IMG/VR virus record: IMGVR_UViG_3300042876_000749
Coordinates: 1 to 23,961 of that record
Length of the DNA stretch: 23,961 bases
DNA from: a virus
Strand: one strand, 5' to 3'
Shown: piece by piece, positions 3,978 through 21,838 of the stretch
How the letters are laid out: each line of letters begins with the position of its first letter
Numbering within the stretch: position 1 is the first letter of the stretch
Translations under genes and position numbers: made by a program
The notes under the pieces: model-generated
Databases searched by the model: none
What the model was told of the DNA's origin: nothing
Seen by the model: only the letters and a program-made list of their open reading frames with translations

Positions 3978-5984
3978 TCACGCGATCAGGGGGAAGAGGT
4001 ACGGGTTGCCGGTGCCCTCGACAGAGGAAGTGAAGAGCACGTTTCCAACCTCCGCTAGACTCGACCCAGCCACCTGATCATCCCAGGTTGCTCCCGGATC
4101 CCCGAAGTCCGTCAGGACCTCAAAGACGCCCGCAGAGAACGTCACGGGGCGCTGAGCCTGATGCATCCAGTCGAGCAGCGAGCGCGCGTTGGCGACGGTG
4201 AGCACCACGTCGTGGCGAAAACCCGCCAAGGCGATCTGGCAATACGTGGCGGGGTCCGTCCCGTTGCCATTGGCACACCCGACGCACAGCGGACTTGCTC
4301 CGGTCGTGATCGCTCCTGCAGCTCCTGCGGAGGAATTCGCGTGCTGCCTCGCCTGGACGATCAAGCGCATATCGAGGCTCGCGCCCGTGCCGTCCCAGGT
4401 GCCGATGACTTGATACCACTTGCCGACCTGGGCGCCGAGGAACTGAATCGTCCGGCGAGTGCCTCCACTGTCGACCACGGAGAATTGGATCGTGTCCCCG
4501 CCCACGTTTATATGCGCGCCGTACGAGCTGAACACACCGTTGGAGAACCCAACTACGACTTGATCGACGAACTGTGTCTCGGTGATCCGAAACCACGCGA
4601 TCAGCGAACCGCGCGCGCCGGTGGTCGGCGCGCTGGGGCCTTCGTAGTAGTTGACGTTACTGAAGGAGTGGAGATAGCCCCAGCTCCCGGGGGCGTACGC
4701 GCCCAAGTTAGCGATGCTGTCCCAACCCACCTCGTCAGCGCCCACCGTGGTTAGGACGTTGCCCAAGGAGCCTACGGGCAGCCCCTGCAAAAACCCGTAC
4801 GAATAGAGAGCCAACAGTCCCGGCGTACCGGCATAGGCTAGCGGGTTGTCGACCGCGTCCAGCTTGGCCTTGTCCGCCCCCGTCATGAAGCCAGCGGCCC
4901 CCGCGGATACAGCGTTCGCATGCAGCGCGCCGCCACCGCGATTGCCATGCTGCGCGTCGCTCGCGAGCACCCCGACTTGCAGCGAGTCGGCATTGGCCAC
5001 GATCGACCCGTCCGCGTGAGCGACGGCGTTGATCGTATTGCCCGTCTTCGTCAGTCCCGCGCCTGCCGTGATCTGCCCGGCGCCCGAGAACTGCGTGAAG
5101 GCGAGTGCGGTCGTGCCGACGGTGATCGCCCCGTCGGTCGTGAGCACCCACCCGCTATCCGCGTTGGCAGTGCCCTCCTGGACGAACACGAACGCGCCGC
5201 GCGCGACGTCGCCGGATGCATCGAAGTCCGTCGCGCGCACTGCTGCGCCAGAGGCCTGGACGACGTAGATGCCGTTCTGCAACGCGGTGCTCTGGTCCTT
5301 CACCAGCACGCGGTCGCCGGTGGCCAGCGTGACGCCGTCGAGCGAGTCGCCGTTCTCCAATGCGGTCGAGAGATCGATGCTCGCAGTGGTCGCGACGCGC
5401 ACCGACTGCTTGATCGACAGTCCCTGCGCGAGCGCGTCGACGTACGCCTTCGTCGCCGCGTCCTGCGCGCTCGAGGGATCGGCGACGCTGGTGAGGCGCT
5501 GCGCGTTCAGCGAGACCGACGACGACGCGGCGGCGAGCGCGGCTGCGACGTTCGCGAAGTCTGTGACGTCGGCGAGTGCCTCGACCCCGTCGAGCTTCGC
5601 CTTGTCGGTGCCGGTCATGAAGCCGGCGGCACCGCTGGCGACCGCGTCCGCGTGCGCGGCGCCACCGGTTCCCACGTGTGCCGCAAGGGCCGCGGCCGCG
5701 TCGCTCGCGACCTCCGCAATCGCTGCCTGTGCGTCTGTCGCTGCGATGGTTCCGACGGGCGTGAAGCCCACGTCTTCGGCATCGACAGGGCCACCGCCGC
5801 CACCGCCGCCCTCCTCGAGCTCCGCGACGATCTCCGCGATCTCGATCACCTTCGTGATGAGCCGGTTCCAGAGCGCCGCCGTGATGTCGTATCGGAGATC
5901 GGGAGTGAGCGTGAGCGGCGCGGGCCGGTCCGCCTTCTCGCGCCCGAGGCTGTCGTCAGTCTGAGTGGGGACTTCGAGCGGCAC
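3978..5984 (-). CDS. Tail fibre with repeat modules and LamG/concanavalin-like tip
   Basis: This encodes 668 aa from GTG 5984, one base after the gpJ-like stop, with GGAGG 6 nt upstream. Residues 1-58 form a helical baseplate anchor, followed by a poly-Gly hinge (59-65). Residues 165-300 carry a common phage fibre module (DAATKAYVDA, then VLVKDQSTALQNGIYVV). A short motif, GAAGFMTGxDKAKLD, occurs twice (about 118-132 and 362-376). From about residue 445 the C-terminus looks like a LamG/concanavalin-A-type sandwich (GSLIAWFRIT, WYQVIGTWDGT, late FRHDVVLTV). It probably binds a host surface glycan or protein. The DNA of the tip (about 3978-4850) is visibly less GC-rich than the flanks, suggesting exchange of the binding tip. 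Confidence 0.8.
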   Translation of the reverse strand: MPLEVPTQTDDSLGREKADRPAPLTLTPDLRYDITAALWNRLITKVIEIAEIVAELEEGGGGGGGPVDAEDVGFTPVGTIAATDAQAAIAEVASDAAAALAAHVGTGGAAHADAVASGAAGFMTGTDKAKLDGVEALADVTDFANVAAALAAASSSVSLNAQRLTSVADPSSAQDAATKAYVDALAQGLSIKQSVRVATTASIDLSTALENGDSLDGVTLATGDRVLVKDQSTALQNGIYVVQASGAAVRATDFDASGDVARGAFVFVQEGTANADSGWVLTTDGAITVGTTALAFTQFSGAGQITAGAGLTKTGNTINAVAHADGSIVANADSLQVGVLASDAQHGNRGGGALHANAVSAGAAGFMTGADKAKLDAVDNPLAYAGTPGLLALYSYGFLQGLPVGSLGNVLTTVGADEVGWDSIANLGAYAPGSWGYLHSFSNVNYYEGPSAPTTGARGSLIAWFRITETQFVDQVVVGFSNGVFSSYGAHINVGGDTIQFSVVDSGGTRRTIQFLGAQVGKWYQVIGTWDGTGASLDMRLIVQARQHANSSAGAAGAITTGASPLCVGCANGNGTDPATYCQIALAGFRHDVVLTVANARSLLDWMHQAQRPVTFSAGVFEVLTDFGDPGATWDDQVAGSSLAEVGNVLFTSSVEGTGNPYLFPLIA
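4857..4901 (-). repeat. Tail-fibre 15-residue repeat, copy 2
   Basis: This encodes GAAGFMTGADKAKLD, near-identical in protein to copy 1 but diverged in DNA at synonymous sites. It lies just before the compositionally different tip region. Confidence 0.75.
5589..5633 (-). repeat. Tail-fibre 15-residue repeat, copy 1
   Basis: This encodes GAAGFMTGTDKAKLD in the tail fibre. It differs by one residue from copy 2 about 730 bp downstream. Motifs of this type are common at linker or shaft positions of phage fibres. Confidence 0.75.
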
Positions 5985-16524: not shown

Positions 16525-17604
16525 TCAGTCGAGGTTCTCGACGTAGAGCATCGAGAGCGGGCGCTTCACGTCGACGCCCGAGCAGCGCGCGCGTGCCGGC
16601 ACGACGAACTCGAAGCCGCGCTGCTGCGGCGCCTCCTCCTCGTAGGAGATCGGCACCGGCCAGCGGATGACCTGCGGGTCCTTCGCGTAGAGGATGCCCT
16701 CCGGCCCGTCCGCCGCGGTGATGTCCGTGCCGCTCGCGCTGTCGAGCGCGTAGTAGCGCTCGATGCGCTTGATGAGGCGCGCGTTCTCGAGGAACCACTG
16801 CTTGACGCTCTTGTCGCTGCCGCTCGAGCGCTGGAGCGTCGCTAGACGGCCCTCGTACGCCGTGGGCAGCACGAGTACCTCGGGCGCGTAGCTGTCGCGC
16901 GCCTGCGCGATCGCCGCCTGCTCGATCTGCGCGAGGTCGGCGATGATCTCGTCTGCGGTCGCCGTGAGCCACTCGCCGTTCGTGAGCGTGACCACCGCGA
17001 CGTTCGGGTTGTTGAAGAACCCGGTGAGACCGGTGGCGGCGTCGCCGATCCGGCCGACCTGGTCGAGGCCGCGCGCGATCATCTCGGCACACGCCATCGC
17101 CTTGTCGCGCGAGAGCTGCACGCCCGCGAAGGCGGCGTACTCGAGCTCCTGGAGGTCGTAGCCGTACGAGCCGGTGATGTTCACGAACTTCGCGAGCACC
17201 TCGGTCAGGTTCACGTCGGCGCGCGGGTGATCGCCAGCGAGCGTGTGGCTGATCTTCGCCGTGCCCCGCTGGTCCATCACGCGCTGCGCGACGGTCTGCG
17301 CGCCACGCGGGATGTTGGTGTCGACCGGGACGAACTCGGCCGCGCGCAGGCGCTCGTAGATCACCATCTCGATCTCGCGTCGGACGAACACGAGGTCGCG
17401 CGCGAGGAAGGCGGTGTTGTTCGCGTCCATCCGCAGGCCGTGGCGATCGAAGAACGCCGCGAGCTCGCGGGTGAGGTTCTGCACCCGCGGCGCGTGCGCC
17501 TCTAGGTACGCCGCGTCCATGCGATCGCTCTGCAGGCGCTTCGCCATCGCGTGCTCGGGCGAGCCGACCACGTAGTCGGTGCCGTCGATGCGCTCGGTCT
17601 CCAT
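16525..17604 (-). CDS. Major capsid protein (HK97-fold, DUF2184-type)
   Basis: This is a 359-aa protein from ATG 17604. It fits DUF2184 capsid proteins: FFDRHGLRMDANNTAFLARDLVFVRREIEMVIYERLRA (segments within residues 51-87), then VNITGSYGYDLQELEYAAFAGVQLSRDKAMAC, GLTGFFNNPNVAVV, PEVLVLPTAYEGRLAT and RWPVPISYEEEAPQQRGFEFVVP. Assembles the icosahedral shell around the scaffold. Its first 14 residues (METERIDGTDYVVG) nearly repeat the start of the nested scaffold upstream, with 19 identical bases in the coding DNA. A GAGG-type ribosome site lies about 9-10 nt upstream. Confidence 0.87.
   Translation of the reverse strand: METERIDGTDYVVGSPEHAMAKRLQSDRMDAAYLEAHAPRVQNLTRELAAFFDRHGLRMDANNTAFLARDLVFVRREIEMVIYERLRAAEFVPVDTNIPRGAQTVAQRVMDQRGTAKISHTLAGDHPRADVNLTEVLAKFVNITGSYGYDLQELEYAAFAGVQLSRDKAMACAEMIARGLDQVGRIGDAATGLTGFFNNPNVAVVTLTNGEWLTATADEIIADLAQIEQAAIAQARDSYAPEVLVLPTAYEGRLATLQRSSGSDKSVKQWFLENARLIKRIERYYALDSASGTDITAADGPEGILYAKDPQVIRWPVPISYEEEAPQQRGFEFVVPARARCSGVDVKRPLSMLYVENLD
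17582..17600 (-). repeat. Shared 19-bp segment, capsid-gene copy
   Basis: Plus-strand ccgtcgatgcgctcggtct lies immediately inside the capsid start codon and recurs identically at 19123-19141 at the internal scaffold start. Both encode TERIDG after the second codon. Confidence 0.8.
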
Positions 17605-17661: not shown

Positions 17662-18504
17662 TCAGTCCTGCGCGACGTAGAGAAGGCCCAGCGCGCCGGC
17701 GCTGCCGCTGGTGAGCAGGCGTGCCCCCGGCCACGGGAAGCAGTCGCCGGAGTCGCTGTCGCCGACGCGCACCGCGCCGAGCTTCTCGGCGCCCGCCGCG
17801 ACGCAGCGCACCAGCGGCCGGTCGCCGGCCTCGAACGCGTTCTCGACGGTGACGTAGCAGGTGCCGTGCTTGAGCACGGGCATCTCGCACTCGTCCTCGT
17901 AGACCTCGTTGTCGGCGCTCGCCGGGTCGACGAGCCCCTTGTGCGAGCGAATGACGACGCCGAGCACGTCGCCGCCAGCGAGGCTGCGCGAGGCGCTCAC
18001 ACCGAGCGTCGCGGTGCCGCTGGTCCCAGCCTGCGCGGGGATGGCCAGCGACACGATCCGCGACGCGTAGCCCGTCGTGCTGACGGTCGCGTTGCCGCCG
18101 TCGGGGATCGAGAGCGACTCCGTCTGCCGGACGCCGTTCTCGTCCTCGTAGATGATCGTCGCGACCGTCGCGTCCCAGTTGGCGTGCGACGAAAGGATCA
18201 GATCGAGGCGCGCCGGCGGCGAGATGCGCCCCGTCCCGATCACGCCGTTGAAGTCGGCGCCTGTGAAAGTCTGCACGCCCGCGGTCGATCCGATGTTCGT
18301 CTTGAGCGCGTCGGCGTCGGCCGCGACCGCCGGGGGCAGGCGCGCAGTGCGATCGCCGCCGGTGCCACGCATCACGACCAAGCCGGGCGCGATGCCGTCG
18401 GTCTCCTCGACGATGGCCGTGGTCTTCCGGTTGTGGTCGGAGTCGGCCTCCATGCCCGGGTAGGCCGCGCTGGGCGCCTGGGCCATCGACGTCTGGTAGG
18501 ACAT
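17662..18504 (-). CDS. Head decoration / capsid cement-like protein
   Basis: This encodes 280 aa from ATG 18504, preceded by GAGGA about 7 nt away. Position between the protease/scaffold and major capsid genes is where decoration (cement) proteins lie in DUF2184 phages. The N-terminus has YPGMEADSDHNRKTTAIVEE, then IAPGLVVMRG. Residues about 83-170 form a beta-rich domain (RISPPARLDLILSSHANWDA to IPAQAGTSGTATLGV) that is clearly related to the insert in the tail sheath. The C-terminal part (CEMPVLKHGTCYVTVENAFEAGDRPLVRCV) resembles cement-protein barrels. It likely trimerises on the capsid surface. The exact family is not certain. Confidence 0.7.
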   Translation of the reverse strand: MSYQTSMAQAPSAAYPGMEADSDHNRKTTAIVEETDGIAPGLVVMRGTGGDRTARLPPAVAADADALKTNIGSTAGVQTFTGADFNGVIGTGRISPPARLDLILSSHANWDATVATIIYEDENGVRQTESLSIPDGGNATVSTTGYASRIVSLAIPAQAGTSGTATLGVSASRSLAGGDVLGVVIRSHKGLVDPASADNEVYEDECEMPVLKHGTCYVTVENAFEAGDRPLVRCVAAGAEKLGAVRVGDSDSGDCFPWPGARLLTSGSAGALGLLYVAQD

Positions 18505-18554: not shown

Positions 18555-19145
18555 TCAGCGCTCGCGGCGCCACTTGTTGCCGAGGTCGGGGCGGAACGAG
18601 GCGGCGTCGAGCCTCGGCTGGTCGCTGGTCGCCGGCACGGCTGCGGCACGAGCGGCCGCGGCGGGCGACGGCTTCGTTCCCTTCGCGGGCTGCGCCCCGT
18701 CCGCGCGGTTCTTGCGCGCGAGCCGGACCTGGGCGTTGAAGTGCGCGCGGACCGTCTTGTCGTCCGCCTTCTCCTCACCCTCGCCCTCGGCGTCGAGCTC
18801 GGCCGCGACCTCGGGGTCGAGCTGCTCGAGCACGAGCATCATCACCTCGCGGTCGCTTTTGCCCGAGAGGTCCTGGTCGCCGAGGAACGCGCGCGCGGCC
18901 TCGAGGAGCCCAGCGCGCGCCTCGACGACGGCGTCGAGGCGCTTCGGGTCGGTCGCCTCCGCGAGCGCCTTCTTCGTGCCGGCGAGCTCGCCCTCGAGTT
19001 CCTTGATGCGCGCGCGGCTGTCGGCCGACTCCTTGGTGAGCTGCTCGATGCGCGCGGCCTGAGCGGCGTCGAACTTGGCGCGCGCCTGCGCGTGCGCGGC
19101 GGTGCCGACCTCGTACTCGATTCCGTCGATGCGCTCGGTCTTCAT
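18555..19145 (-). CDS. Nested scaffold protein from internal start
   Basis: An ATG at 19145, in frame within the protease gene, has AGGAG 10 nt upstream, a better ribosome site than the full gene's start. It would give a 196-aa free scaffold: coiled coil near the N-terminus, then acidic and Ala/Lys-rich segments typical of scaffolds. Its start, MKTERIDGIEYEVG, nearly repeats the start of the major capsid protein. Free scaffold made from inside the protease gene is known for lambda (Nu3 in C). Use of this start is inferred. Confidence 0.6.
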   Translation of the reverse strand: MKTERIDGIEYEVGTAAHAQARAKFDAAQAARIEQLTKESADSRARIKELEGELAGTKKALAEATDPKRLDAVVEARAGLLEAARAFLGDQDLSGKSDREVMMLVLEQLDPEVAAELDAEGEGEEKADDKTVRAHFNAQVRLARKNRADGAQPAKGTKPSPAAAARAAAVPATSDQPRLDAASFRPDLGNKWRRER

Positions 19146-19841
19146 CGCGTGATCGCTCCTGTGCGTCTGCGTCGAATGGGTCGGCGCCGGCGACGGCGCG
19201 GGGTTGGCGGGCTCATCGACGCGCTCGATCGCGACGTCGGTGTCGCGCGCATCGAGGCGCAGCGAGGCGGCCTCACCAGCGCGCGCGCCGCCCTTGGGGA
19301 GCAGCGCGACGTGGTTGTAGACGCGCTGACGCTGCACGGCGTCGTACGCCTGGCCCTGGTAGGTGCCGGGCGTCGGGTCGAGGAAGAGTCGATAGCCCGC
19401 GCTCAGCTCGACGAGCTCGCCGGCGTCGATGCGGCGCATCGCGTCGGCGTCGGCGATCGCGAGCTGCGCGTGCACGAGCCGCCCGTCGCTCGTCGGCTCG
19501 CCAGACACGTGGCCCACGGCGTCCGCGCGGTACGTCTCGGGCGAGACCATGCGACGGGAGCCGTCGGCGCGCGTCGGGTGGTACACGGTCACCGGCGCAT
19601 CACGCAGCGACGTGAGCGACTCGAGGCGCGAGACCTCTTCGGCGGGCACGAGCTCGCGCGTCGTGGTGCCGTCGGCGTGGTGGTAGACGAGGATCCCAGA
19701 GCGCGCGACGGTCGCCTTCACGCGAACGCCGCCGGCGGCCGTTCGCTCCGCTCGAGCGAGCGCGCCCACGTCGGCCCTGACGGCCGGGCGCCAGTGCGCC
19801 GGGATGCTCGCGTCGTCGTGTCGCTCGTGCTCGCCGTCCAC
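18555..19841 (-). CDS. Prohead protease fused to scaffold (DUF2213-type)
   Basis: This is a 428-aa protein from GTG 19841, with a weak AGGG 3 nt upstream. Residues about 38-205 match DUF2213, a phage prohead protease-like family. SLRDAPVTVYHPTRADGS gives His88, GELVELSAGYRLF gives Ser147 (both candidate catalytic residues by analogy), and VYNHVALLPKGGARAGEAASLRLD closes the domain. A Pro/Thr-rich linker (211-232) leads to the scaffold part, with coiled coil about 245-300 and an acidic stretch (AAELDAEGEGEEKADDK). The scaffold part has its own internal start (19145). The layout recalls lambda C/Nu3: the protease cleaves the scaffold and itself during head maturation. Confidence 0.82.
   Translation of the reverse strand: MDGEHERHDDASIPAHWRPAVRADVGALARAERTAAGGVRVKATVARSGILVYHHADGTTTRELVPAEEVSRLESLTSLRDAPVTVYHPTRADGSRRMVSPETYRADAVGHVSGEPTSDGRLVHAQLAIADADAMRRIDAGELVELSAGYRLFLDPTPGTYQGQAYDAVQRQRVYNHVALLPKGGARAGEAASLRLDARDTDVAIERVDEPANPAPSPAPTHSTQTHRSDHAMKTERIDGIEYEVGTAAHAQARAKFDAAQAARIEQLTKESADSRARIKELEGELAGTKKALAEATDPKRLDAVVEARAGLLEAARAFLGDQDLSGKSDREVMMLVLEQLDPEVAAELDAEGEGEEKADDKTVRAHFNAQVRLARKNRADGAQPAKGTKPSPAAAARAAAVPATSDQPRLDAASFRPDLGNKWRRER
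19123..19141 (-). repeat. Shared 19-bp segment, scaffold copy
   Basis: This is the identical partner of 17582-17600, immediately inside the internal scaffold ATG. Confidence 0.8.
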
Positions 19842-19860
19842 GAGCCCTGGTGTCGCCGAC

Positions 19861-19876
19861 GGCGCGCGTTCGCGCC
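19861..19876 (-). other. Small GC hairpin in the protease leader
   Basis: GGCGCG and CGCGCC pair around a 4-nt loop between the heptad array and the protease GTG. There is no T-run. It could affect translation of the protease gene, or be chance in this composition. Confidence 0.35.
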
Positions 19877-19877
19877 T

Positions 19878-19912
19878 GGGATACCTGGGATTCCTAGTAT
19901 CCCAAGAATCCC
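19878..19912. promoter_or_regulatory. Candidate operator: four GGGATWC heptads
   Basis: Four 7-bp units lie at 19878 (GGGATAC), 19887 (GGGATTC), 19897 (GTATCCC) and 19906 (GAATCCC), two direct and two inverted, with starts 9, 10 and 9 bp apart. The array sits in the 114-bp gap between the RHH gene and the protease gene, the longest gap in the window. Some RHH regulators, such as plasmid omega proteins and MetJ, bind arrays of 7-8-bp boxes. As RNA the units are interleaved, so a pseudoknot or a long imperfect hairpin is an alternative. No -10/-35 promoter is evident. Confidence 0.6.
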
Positions 19913-19955
19913 GTGCTCATGTGCCCCCTACGATCCACGCGCGTGCGCGACGCGT

Positions 19956-20144
19956 TCAGCTCGAGCGTGCGCCGAGGAAGTCGCGCAGGTGCTCGCTGCT
20001 CTCGATGATCTCCCGCAACGCCTGCGACCGCGAGAGCACCACACGGGCCTCGCGGGAGCGGCGCTCGACGTAGAGGTCAAGCGCCTGCTGCAGCTCGTCG
20101 GGGAGCTTCACGGTCACGGAGCAGTTGAGCTTCTCTCGCGTCAC
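19956..20144 (-). CDS. Ribbon-helix-helix (CopG/Arc-type) small DNA-binding protein
   Basis: This encodes 62 aa from GTG 20144, overlapping the portal stop as GTGA, with GAGG 4 nt upstream. Residues 6-14 (LNCSVTVKLP) form the beta strand that pairs in an RHH dimer. Helix 1 is PDELQQALDLYVERR, and helix 2 follows a VLSRSQALREIIES segment with the usual S-R-S/Q turn. It is close to the minimal RHH length. A DNA-binding regulator in the middle of a head operon is unusual. The adjacent GGGATWC array is the obvious candidate target, suggesting control of protease/scaffold and downstream expression or self-control. Confidence 0.75.
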   Translation of the reverse strand: MTREKLNCSVTVKLPDELQQALDLYVERRSREARVVLSRSQALREIIESSEHLRDFLGARSS

Positions 20145-21838
20145 GCACCCTCACGCTCGCGTCCCGTCGGAGGTGCGCCGCCGCGGTCGGTTCCGGGCGG
20201 GGGCTGCGGCGCGCCGGCGGCCTGCCCAGGTTGCGGCGCGGGCGCTGGGCCCGGCGGCTGGGGCGCGGGCGTGGCCTGCGAGCGCCAGCCCATCGGGCCG
20301 AGGATCCGCTCGGCCGCCTCGCGCGCGAAGCCGTGCACGTCGACGAGGATCGCGATCCCGCTCTCGCGCGAGATCGCTCCGTTCGTCACGTCCTTGATGA
20401 CCTCGCGCACCTCGCTCGAGCGCGGTCCGATGGTGCCGAGCTGCGCGTTGTCCTTCGGTGGCTGCGCGGCGAGCTCGAGGCGACGCGCGTACGCGGCGCG
20501 CACCCCCGCCTCGTCGAGCTGCACCTGGCCCGCGCCCACCGTCGTGAAGCGCGCGAGTGCGATGACCTCCGGCGGTGCAACACCCTTGTCGATGTAGAGC
20601 GCGTCACGGTCGGCCTCGAGCTTCTCGACCTCTGCGAGCTGCTTGCGCGTGGGCAGTCGCAGAGCGCGGTAGTTCACCGAGTACTGCTCGGGCTCACGCC
20701 CTCCGGTCGGGCCGTCCTGCGCGAGCAGGATCGCGCGGACGAGGCGCTCGTGCCGGGGGCGCAGCTCGAGCGTGCGCCACCCGTCGACGGTCGTGTTCCA
20801 CGTCTCCTGGTCGGCCTCGGCGTTCGTACCCGCGCCGAGCACCGACTGGCCCATGAGCACGCTCAACGGCATCTCGGCGGCGGCCGCGAGCCGCAGGGCG
20901 CCGCGGTCGATCATCTCGGGCACGCCTCCGAGCGGCTGCGTGACGTTCTCGAAGGCCTCCTCGACGTCGAGCAGGATCGCTCGAGCACGCGAGCGCGACG
21001 CGTCGAGCAGCGACATGCGCCGACGGAGCGTCTCCTCCTCCTTGCCGGCGATCATCTTGTAGAGGTTCTTGAGCTTGTAGACCGCCTGCGCGACGCGCCC
21101 GAGCAGCAGGCTCTTGCTCCCGTAGTCTTCCGCGCACTGACGCAGGGCGTCCCAGCACCGCTCGAGCACGCTGTCGTCCCAGCCCTGGTTCTGCAGCCGG
21201 CGATCATCCGTCGACGGCTGGCCGTCCCACCGAATGAGACGCGTCTCGTGGATGAGCGCCCCGTGCCCGCCCTGGCCCTGCAGTCCGCTCATCGCCGCGG
21301 CCGCGGAGAGCAGCCGCTGGCGGATGCGGTAGGTCTCGGGCCGGCGATAGCGCGGGTGCGTCGGGTCGGCGTAGAGCCGCTCAATGCGCACGTCGCGCCG
21401 ATCGAACGTGTGCAGACCGAGCACCGTGCGGACGTTCGCCTCGTCCAGCGGCAGCGCCGGATCGCGACCGTCGTCGACGACGATCCACGTGAGCGCGCCG
21501 CCGAAGAGCCGCCCCCAGCAGGCGCCCTGCGAGAGCTCCTGCGTCGCGCACAGCCGATCCTCGTACGCCTTGAACGCGTCGCGGATGCGCGCGCCCGCGA
21601 CGGGGTCGCCAGGGACCACGAGCTCCCAGCCAGGGCGCAACGCGCTCTTCGGAAGCGCCTCGACGATCCGCGCCGCGAAGTGGTCCTCGGCGTAGAGCGC
21701 CTCGAGCGTCACGTCGTCGATGCGCGCGCGCGCTCCGAAACGCGTGTACGCGGTCGGGTCCTTCGTGCCGCCCAGCCCGAGCAGCGTGTTCTCCCACCCG
21801 TCCGCGCGCATGGCCTGGTCGATCGTCTCAGTGCTCAT
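20141..21838 (-). CDS. Portal protein (DUF1073-type)
   Basis: This is a 565-aa protein from ATG 21838, overlapping the terminase stop as ATGA; a longer reading to 22093 lies inside the terminase gene and was rejected. Features of DUF1073 portals are visible: AEDHFAARIVEALPKSALRPGWELV near residues 38-62, CATQELSQGACWGRLFGGALTWIVVDDG, RLIRWDGQPS, ENVTQPLGGVPEMIDRGALRLAAAAEMPLSVLMGQSVLGAGTNAEAD, and a late LPTRKQLAEVEKLEADRDALYIDKG. The C-terminus is a Pro/Gln-rich tail. It forms the dodecameric DNA channel at one capsid vertex. Confidence 0.85.
   Translation of the reverse strand: MSTETIDQAMRADGWENTLLGLGGTKDPTAYTRFGARARIDDVTLEALYAEDHFAARIVEALPKSALRPGWELVVPGDPVAGARIRDAFKAYEDRLCATQELSQGACWGRLFGGALTWIVVDDGRDPALPLDEANVRTVLGLHTFDRRDVRIERLYADPTHPRYRRPETYRIRQRLLSAAAAMSGLQGQGGHGALIHETRLIRWDGQPSTDDRRLQNQGWDDSVLERCWDALRQCAEDYGSKSLLLGRVAQAVYKLKNLYKMIAGKEEETLRRRMSLLDASRSRARAILLDVEEAFENVTQPLGGVPEMIDRGALRLAAAAEMPLSVLMGQSVLGAGTNAEADQETWNTTVDGWRTLELRPRHERLVRAILLAQDGPTGGREPEQYSVNYRALRLPTRKQLAEVEKLEADRDALYIDKGVAPPEVIALARFTTVGAGQVQLDEAGVRAAYARRLELAAQPPKDNAQLGTIGPRSSEVREVIKDVTNGAISRESGIAILVDVHGFAREAAERILGPMGWRSQATPAPQPPGPAPAPQPGQAAGAPQPPPGTDRGGAPPTGREREGA

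Follow-up and report, generated by a model that had tools for sequence, protein, structure and literature searches.

Head module and its intergenic gap

The window is the whole stretch of DNA that was analyzed, a 23,961-bp IMG/VR virus record, and nearly all of its genes are carried on the minus strand. Its head module runs in the order TerS, TerL, portal, a small ribbon-helix-helix (RHH) gene, a 114-bp gap, protease/scaffold, cement, and major capsid protein. The features of the module are as follows.

23902-23405, minus strand: TerS gene (PF03592)
23412-21835, minus strand: TerL gene
20141-21838, minus strand: portal gene (PF06381), upstream of the RHH gene and coupled to it
19956-20144, minus strand: RHH gene, 62 aa, with homologues at the equivalent place in eight other phages
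19842-19955, no strand assigned: gap of 114 bp between the RHH and protease/scaffold genes, a candidate operator/promoter region
19906-19912, minus strand: box 4, GGGATTC
19897-19903, minus strand: box 3, GGGATAC
19896-19901, minus strand: weak candidate extended -10 (TGG-GATACT) inside the box array, a 4/6 match with TG motif, low confidence
19887-19893, plus strand: box 2, GGGATTC
19878-19884, plus strand: box 1, GGGATAC
18555-19841, minus strand: protease/scaffold gene (DUF2213, PHROG 530), the first gene after the array
17662-18504, minus strand: cement protein gene (PF22758), downstream of the array
16525-17604, minus strand: major capsid protein gene (PF09950), downstream of the array

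The preliminary description of this DNA had reported a 62-aa RHH-type gene coupled to the portal gene, and this proved correct: the open reading frame (20144-19956, minus strand) begins with a GTG codon, and its GTGA start overlaps the portal stop by 4 bp. The protease gene likewise starts with GTG, at position 19841. The gap between the two genes had been called the longest in the window, a claim that holds with a caveat: a nominal 179-bp gap at 11984-11806 is discounted, since the tail chaperone is likely to be extended across it by a -1 frameshift, and genes to the left of 7574 were compared from the ORF list only. The tail-assembly chaperone probably undergoes programmed -1 frameshifting at a CCCTTTC slippery site (12045-12039, minus strand), and its open -1 frame runs to 11809 through the apparent gap that precedes the tape measure gene.

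Another feature of the module is an internal start in the protease/scaffold gene, MKTERIDGIEYEVG (19145-19100, minus strand), with AGGAG 10 nt upstream. This segment closely resembles the N-terminus of the major capsid protein, METERIDGTDYVVG (17604-17560, minus strand), and the likeness is conserved in relatives, which suggests that the scaffold is started separately with an N-terminal motif common to the capsid protein.

The RHH gene and its relatives

Relatives were gathered from IMG/VR contigs with the capsid, portal, and protease as baits. Eight further phages possess an RHH ORF downstream of the portal gene, making nine with the window, and all nine are uncultured tailed phages represented by metagenomic fragments. 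The ORFs of the relatives lie at the following positions.

L004: 3245-3442
L005: 3732-3935
L007: 3649-3852
L008: 4038-4265
L010: 4101-4289
L011: 3572-3805
L016: 3987-4184
L027: 3748-3918

The RHH gene overlaps or abuts the portal stop in seven of the nine phages (the window, L004, L005, L007, L011, L016, and L027), and in L008 and L010 a single small ORF separates the two. Cargo ORFs lie between the RHH and protease genes in L005, L008, and L010. For instance, the L010 contig carries a GIY-YIG (MUG113/T5orf172) gene there (4286-4888) that overlaps the RHH stop by 4 bp. The L016 protein was recovered at E 7e-14 by a profile built without it. A further supposed relative, L003, was dropped, since its ORF looks sigma-factor-like.

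In a protease tree of 37 rows, eight of the RHH phages group in a single clade with 100/97 support, and the state changes only once on the tree; L016 was left out because its protease fragment is too short. A single origin of the RHH gene, without loss, fits this tree. Among 50 other protease-bearing contigs, five have a match to RHH_1, three of them above the cut-off, and in the one of the five that was inspected (L038) the match lies on the strand opposite the protease. Outside the clade, the place of the RHH gene is taken by a Mu-F-like minor head gene in L024, L025, and L035, as recognized by Pfam, and in L041 by a minor head gene whose motifs are, on inspection, typical of Mu F. Since related phages outside the clade carry a Phage_Mu_F-type gene at this very place, the preliminary description was right to expect a minor head gene there. 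The contigs of L005 and L011 also carry tyrosine integrase genes, and at least some phages of the RHH clade are probably temperate. A pattern-based search for portal relatives in one genome per species, covering 84,980 species, returned none.

On the combined evidence of sequence profiles and a predicted structure, the 62-aa protein is a member of the RHH superfamily (MetJ/Arc/CopG). The window copy scores 14.0 bits against Pfam RHH_1, below the cut-off of 20.5, which is passed by three of the nine members (L027 at 24.8 bits, L004 and L005 at 21.0 bits each). In sequence comparison, a profile of all nine matches NikR and CopG-type PDB chains. Both the nine-member alignment and an AlphaFold model begin with a short strand in which hydrophobic residues alternate, and two helices come after it; in the monomer modeled from the nine sequences (mean pLDDT 86), the N-terminus is extended up to residue 15 and the helices span residues 16-33 and 39-61. 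The best structural matches of the model (VIA) are NikR (Z 5.8) and ParD (Z 5.5), values that are modest, as is usual for a domain of this size, and a Foldseek search against the PDB yielded nothing significant (E > 5). In an annotated phage collection, the window protein found only a chance-level match in a Streptomyces phage, and no homologues of the L027 or L005 proteins were found. The strand residues predicted to face DNA are S-T-K in the window and V-S-R, Q-C-R, A-T-K, and others in the relatives; as read from the alignment, they are distinct in all nine proteins.

Box arrays before the protease gene

GGGATWC occurs four times in the gap, in the orientation +,+,-,- and with starts 9/10/9 bp apart, as was first described. 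Only two other copies exist in the 24 kb, each of them single. None of 400 dinucleotide shuffles of the gap produced four such boxes, and for the exact 9/10/9 arrangement this site alone ranks first among 23,927 positions in the contig. In a looser scan for any four-box array with 8-11 bp spacing, 13 of 2318 equal-sized segments from the rest of the contig scored as high. Taken together, these results indicate that the array is real and that chance is an unlikely source of it. The array has a GC content of 51%, as compared with 71.5% for the contig, and its exact form was absent from all other IMG/VR contigs searched. No convincing sigma-70 promoter (on a stricter scan), intrinsic terminator, or U tract was found in the gap; Rfam returned one meaningless sub-threshold match, and PADLOC reported nothing.

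A clear array or dyad was found in four of the nine RHH gaps, with a sequence private to each phage: GGGATWC in the window, TGAWTACG in L004, GTCGACA in L007, and a TGGTTTACyTGGTC palindrome in L027. The L004 array, CGTAATCA-a-TGAATACGG-t-CCGTATTCA-a-TGATTACG, repeats TGAWTACG four times. The 12.4-kb contig has no TGAWTAC outside the gap, the four copies comparing with an expectation of 0.14, and the dyad of the array was reached by 0 of 300 shuffles. In L007, five copies of GTCGACA (one degenerate) keep a strict 9-bp period and span the end of the RHH gene. The L027 palindrome, TGGTTTACTTGGTC-C-GACCAGGTAAACCA, has arms of 14+14 bp, is unique in its contig, and was equaled in 1 of 300 shuffles. 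Two further gaps are suggestive: L016 has a dyad, GGTTCGTTGCA-C-TGCAATGAACC, reached by 9 of 300 shuffles, and in L010 four NNRGATC boxes at 10/9/9 adjoin the protease gene despite the intervening GIY-YIG gene. Evidence in L011 is weak, and the arrays of L011, L010, and L016 were all weak in unbiased tests. No convincing array occurs near the RHH gene of L005, and L008 has only a hairpin far from it; in both, 1-2 kb is inserted between the RHH and protease genes. By direct reading, and with the starts of the relatives inferred from ORFs, the arrays and dyads stop short of the protease start by about 25-46 bp. The 9/10/9 spacing is exact in the window and is not claimed to be universal, because box frame and orientation leave the spacing ambiguous in the other phages.

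From one phage to the next, protein and boxes seem to have changed in step, and the strand differences that accompany the box differences are consistent with co-variation. The co-variation that had been proposed at the outset stands as a comparison (the arrays of L004, L007, and L027 differ as the proteins do) and not as a formal test. The contrary pattern named at that time, an RHH gene kept where the array is absent, does occur in part: L005 and L008 have no convincing array, and that of L011 is weak.

Gaps of relatives without the RHH gene served as controls. Multi-box arrays at p<=0.01 were found in 3/9 RHH gaps vs. 2/63 RHH-less gaps (Fisher p=0.012), and at p<=0.02 in 3/9 vs. 4/63 (p=0.038), an association that is real but modest. 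Dyads also precede the protease gene in some RHH-less phages, being reached by 3/300 shuffles in L041, 1/300 in L034, and, less clearly, 16/300 in L031. A dyad alone was accordingly rejected as a marker of the RHH clade, as it fails to separate phages with the gene from those without, and the link between RHH gene and array is therefore good but not exclusive. Among the sites ahead of the protease gene in phages with no detectable RHH gene, the L034 dyad lies at 4437-4466, and L031 has a set of AGGCAAA-like boxes at about 4437-4490. In the corresponding gap of L041, immediately before the protease gene, a good sigma-70-like promoter (1151-1179; TTGACG-17-TAGGAT) holds the dyad CTATGAC-ttcgat-GTCATAG in its spacer. 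This suggests that a regulated promoter inside the operon, ahead of the protease gene, may predate the RHH gene.

When the gaps were folded as RNA, folding was strong in the window (z -3.7), L004 (-6.7), and L027 (-4.0), and little better than shuffles in L007, L010, L016, and L011 (-1.0 to -1.9). Such folding is weak evidence for an RNA element, because any DNA dyad also folds as RNA.

A putative local regulator of capsid genes

The interpretation considered rather probable is that a local RHH repressor or regulator, similar in function to SvtR of SIRV1, acts on an operator that lies immediately ahead of the genes for protease-scaffold and capsid. Like RHH proteins in general, which as homodimers read DNA with a two-stranded ribbon, the regulator would be dimeric; it would be produced along with the portal protein, and its level would rise with portal translation. 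RHH dimers would then bind the four-box array cooperatively, upstream of the protease/scaffold gene, and the bound protein would control the entry of RNA polymerase into the protease-scaffold, cement, and capsid genes, whether by covering an internal promoter or by standing in the path of transcription as a roadblock. What is observed is the gene, its family and conserved place, the array, and the differing arrays of relatives; the binding itself, its cooperativity, the target promoter, and the sign of regulation are inferred. Repression or delay is more likely than activation, given the precedent of SvtR acting on gp30 (PMC5569661). A local switch tuning protease/scaffold and capsid output had been suggested in the preliminary description and is supported in part; membership in the RHH family, the clade-wide place of the gene, and the phage-specific arrays speak for it, and L005, L008, the weak arrays of L011, L010, and L016, the dyads of RHH-less phages, and a window gap with no convincing sigma-70 promoter speak against it.

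The array could instead serve as operator for another protein, such as a phage master repressor or a late activator working at an internal promoter, with the RHH protein regulating something else. This is unlikely, yet it retains some weight for the gap sites because RHH-less phages show regulatory-looking sequences at the same place (the promoter and dyad of L041, the dyad of L034, and the AGGCAAA boxes of L031); the integrases of L005 and L011 also indicate that the phages may be temperate and need silenced late genes. Against it, box sequence and RHH strand both differ in every RHH phage, the RHH clade is richer in clear multi-box arrays, at the Fisher p=0.012 given above, and the RHH family is known to bind comparable box arrays. 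Somewhat less likely again is an RNA hairpin that would set the portal-RHH transcript apart from the capsid message by terminating or attenuating that transcript or by marking it for cleavage. The strong folding of three gaps (window, L004, and L027) would suit a hairpin, but the other four gaps that were folded barely exceed shuffles, and there is no U tract, terminator call, or Rfam match of note. Boxes are moreover repeated inside each arm, which a plain hairpin does not need, and those of L007 are direct repeats; an RNA element is treated as a rival and not as the lead because of the repeats within each arm and the missing U tract.

It is quite improbable that the RHH protein is an orphan antitoxin or neutral cargo and the repeats incidental. 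Its nearest folds do include the antitoxins ParD and MazE, and small cargo genes occupy the gap in L010, L008, and L005. No toxin gene adjoins the RHH gene, however; in the window, L004, L007, L011, L016, and L027 the neighbors are portal and protease. All nine phages retain the gene, most of them with portal coupling, and one origin without loss fits the protease tree. Least probable of all, and hardly to be expected, is a partition or packaging site at which the RHH protein serves as a centromere binder of the ParB/ParR/omega kind or as a terminase helper at a pac/cos-like site. An RHH gene with a box array does recall omega/parS of plasmid pSM19035, where four contiguous heptads are sufficient (PMC9499535). 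Neither the window nor five related contigs, each of them incomplete, yielded a ParA-type ATPase (PF13614), though. The boxes are spaced at 9-10 bp and not as the contiguous 7-bp heptads of omega, and the earlier suggestion that the protein acts on DNA packaging went unsupported, as TerS (PF03592) and TerL are both present in their usual place.

To return to the local RHH regulator, a wider and more tentative proposal is that, in one clade, a self-contained cassette of regulator and operator took the place of the Mu-F minor head gene and controls the timing of portal relative to scaffold and capsid, or their ratio, with regulator and boxes re-specifying each other fast. In tailed phages, the ratios among head genes are generally attributed to one late promoter and to translation. 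A repressor located between portal and scaffold would, if confirmed, offer a direct handle on portal-to-capsid stoichiometry. If re-specification is indeed fast, related phages would not cross-regulate one another's capsid genes on co-infecting a cell. For the study of how RHH specificity evolves, the nine natural regulators, of which four have clear boxes, would also constitute a ready set. Overall, the data suggest a local, fast-evolving switch on capsid production and predict binding between the RHH protein and its boxes.

Arc, CopG, NikR, and MetJ resemble the present protein in fold and size, and the RHH profile matches NikR and CopG chains. Repressors of this type regulate immunity, plasmid copy number, and nickel or methionine genes, and we know of none inside a phage head operon. 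A regulator at the portal-protease position was likewise not described in the open-licence literature searched. A comparable case is myophage ctsHD2 (MW202816; L101, 2849-3052), where a 67-aa RHH-like ORF annotated as "omega" occurs in the head module; it differs in lying upstream of the portal gene, flanked by a Mu-F-like minor head gene on one side and further small genes on the other, with no array seen.

The omega protein (ParB_pSM) of pSM19035 is an RHH dimer that binds an array of 7-bp boxes, some direct and some inverted, with four boxes making up a functional unit (PMC9499535, PMC4803016). Its heptads (5'-NATCACN-3') are contiguous with a 7-bp period, in contrast to the 9-10 bp period and phage-specific boxes described here, and the omega/parS system has a ParA partner of which no counterpart was found. 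SvtR of the archaeal rudivirus SIRV1 is an RHH protein that represses both its own gene and gp30, which encodes a structural component of the virion; it binds an imperfect inverted-repeat site, oligomerization along the DNA has been suggested, and a delay of the structural gene has been proposed (PMC5569661). The virus is unrelated and infects another domain of hosts, binding is proven for SvtR and predicted here, and SvtR (gp08) is, as far as the numbering shows, not encoded beside gp30 in a head operon. What the two have in common is a small viral RHH protein, a structural-gene target (putative in the present case), and a site built of inverted repeats (PMC5569661).
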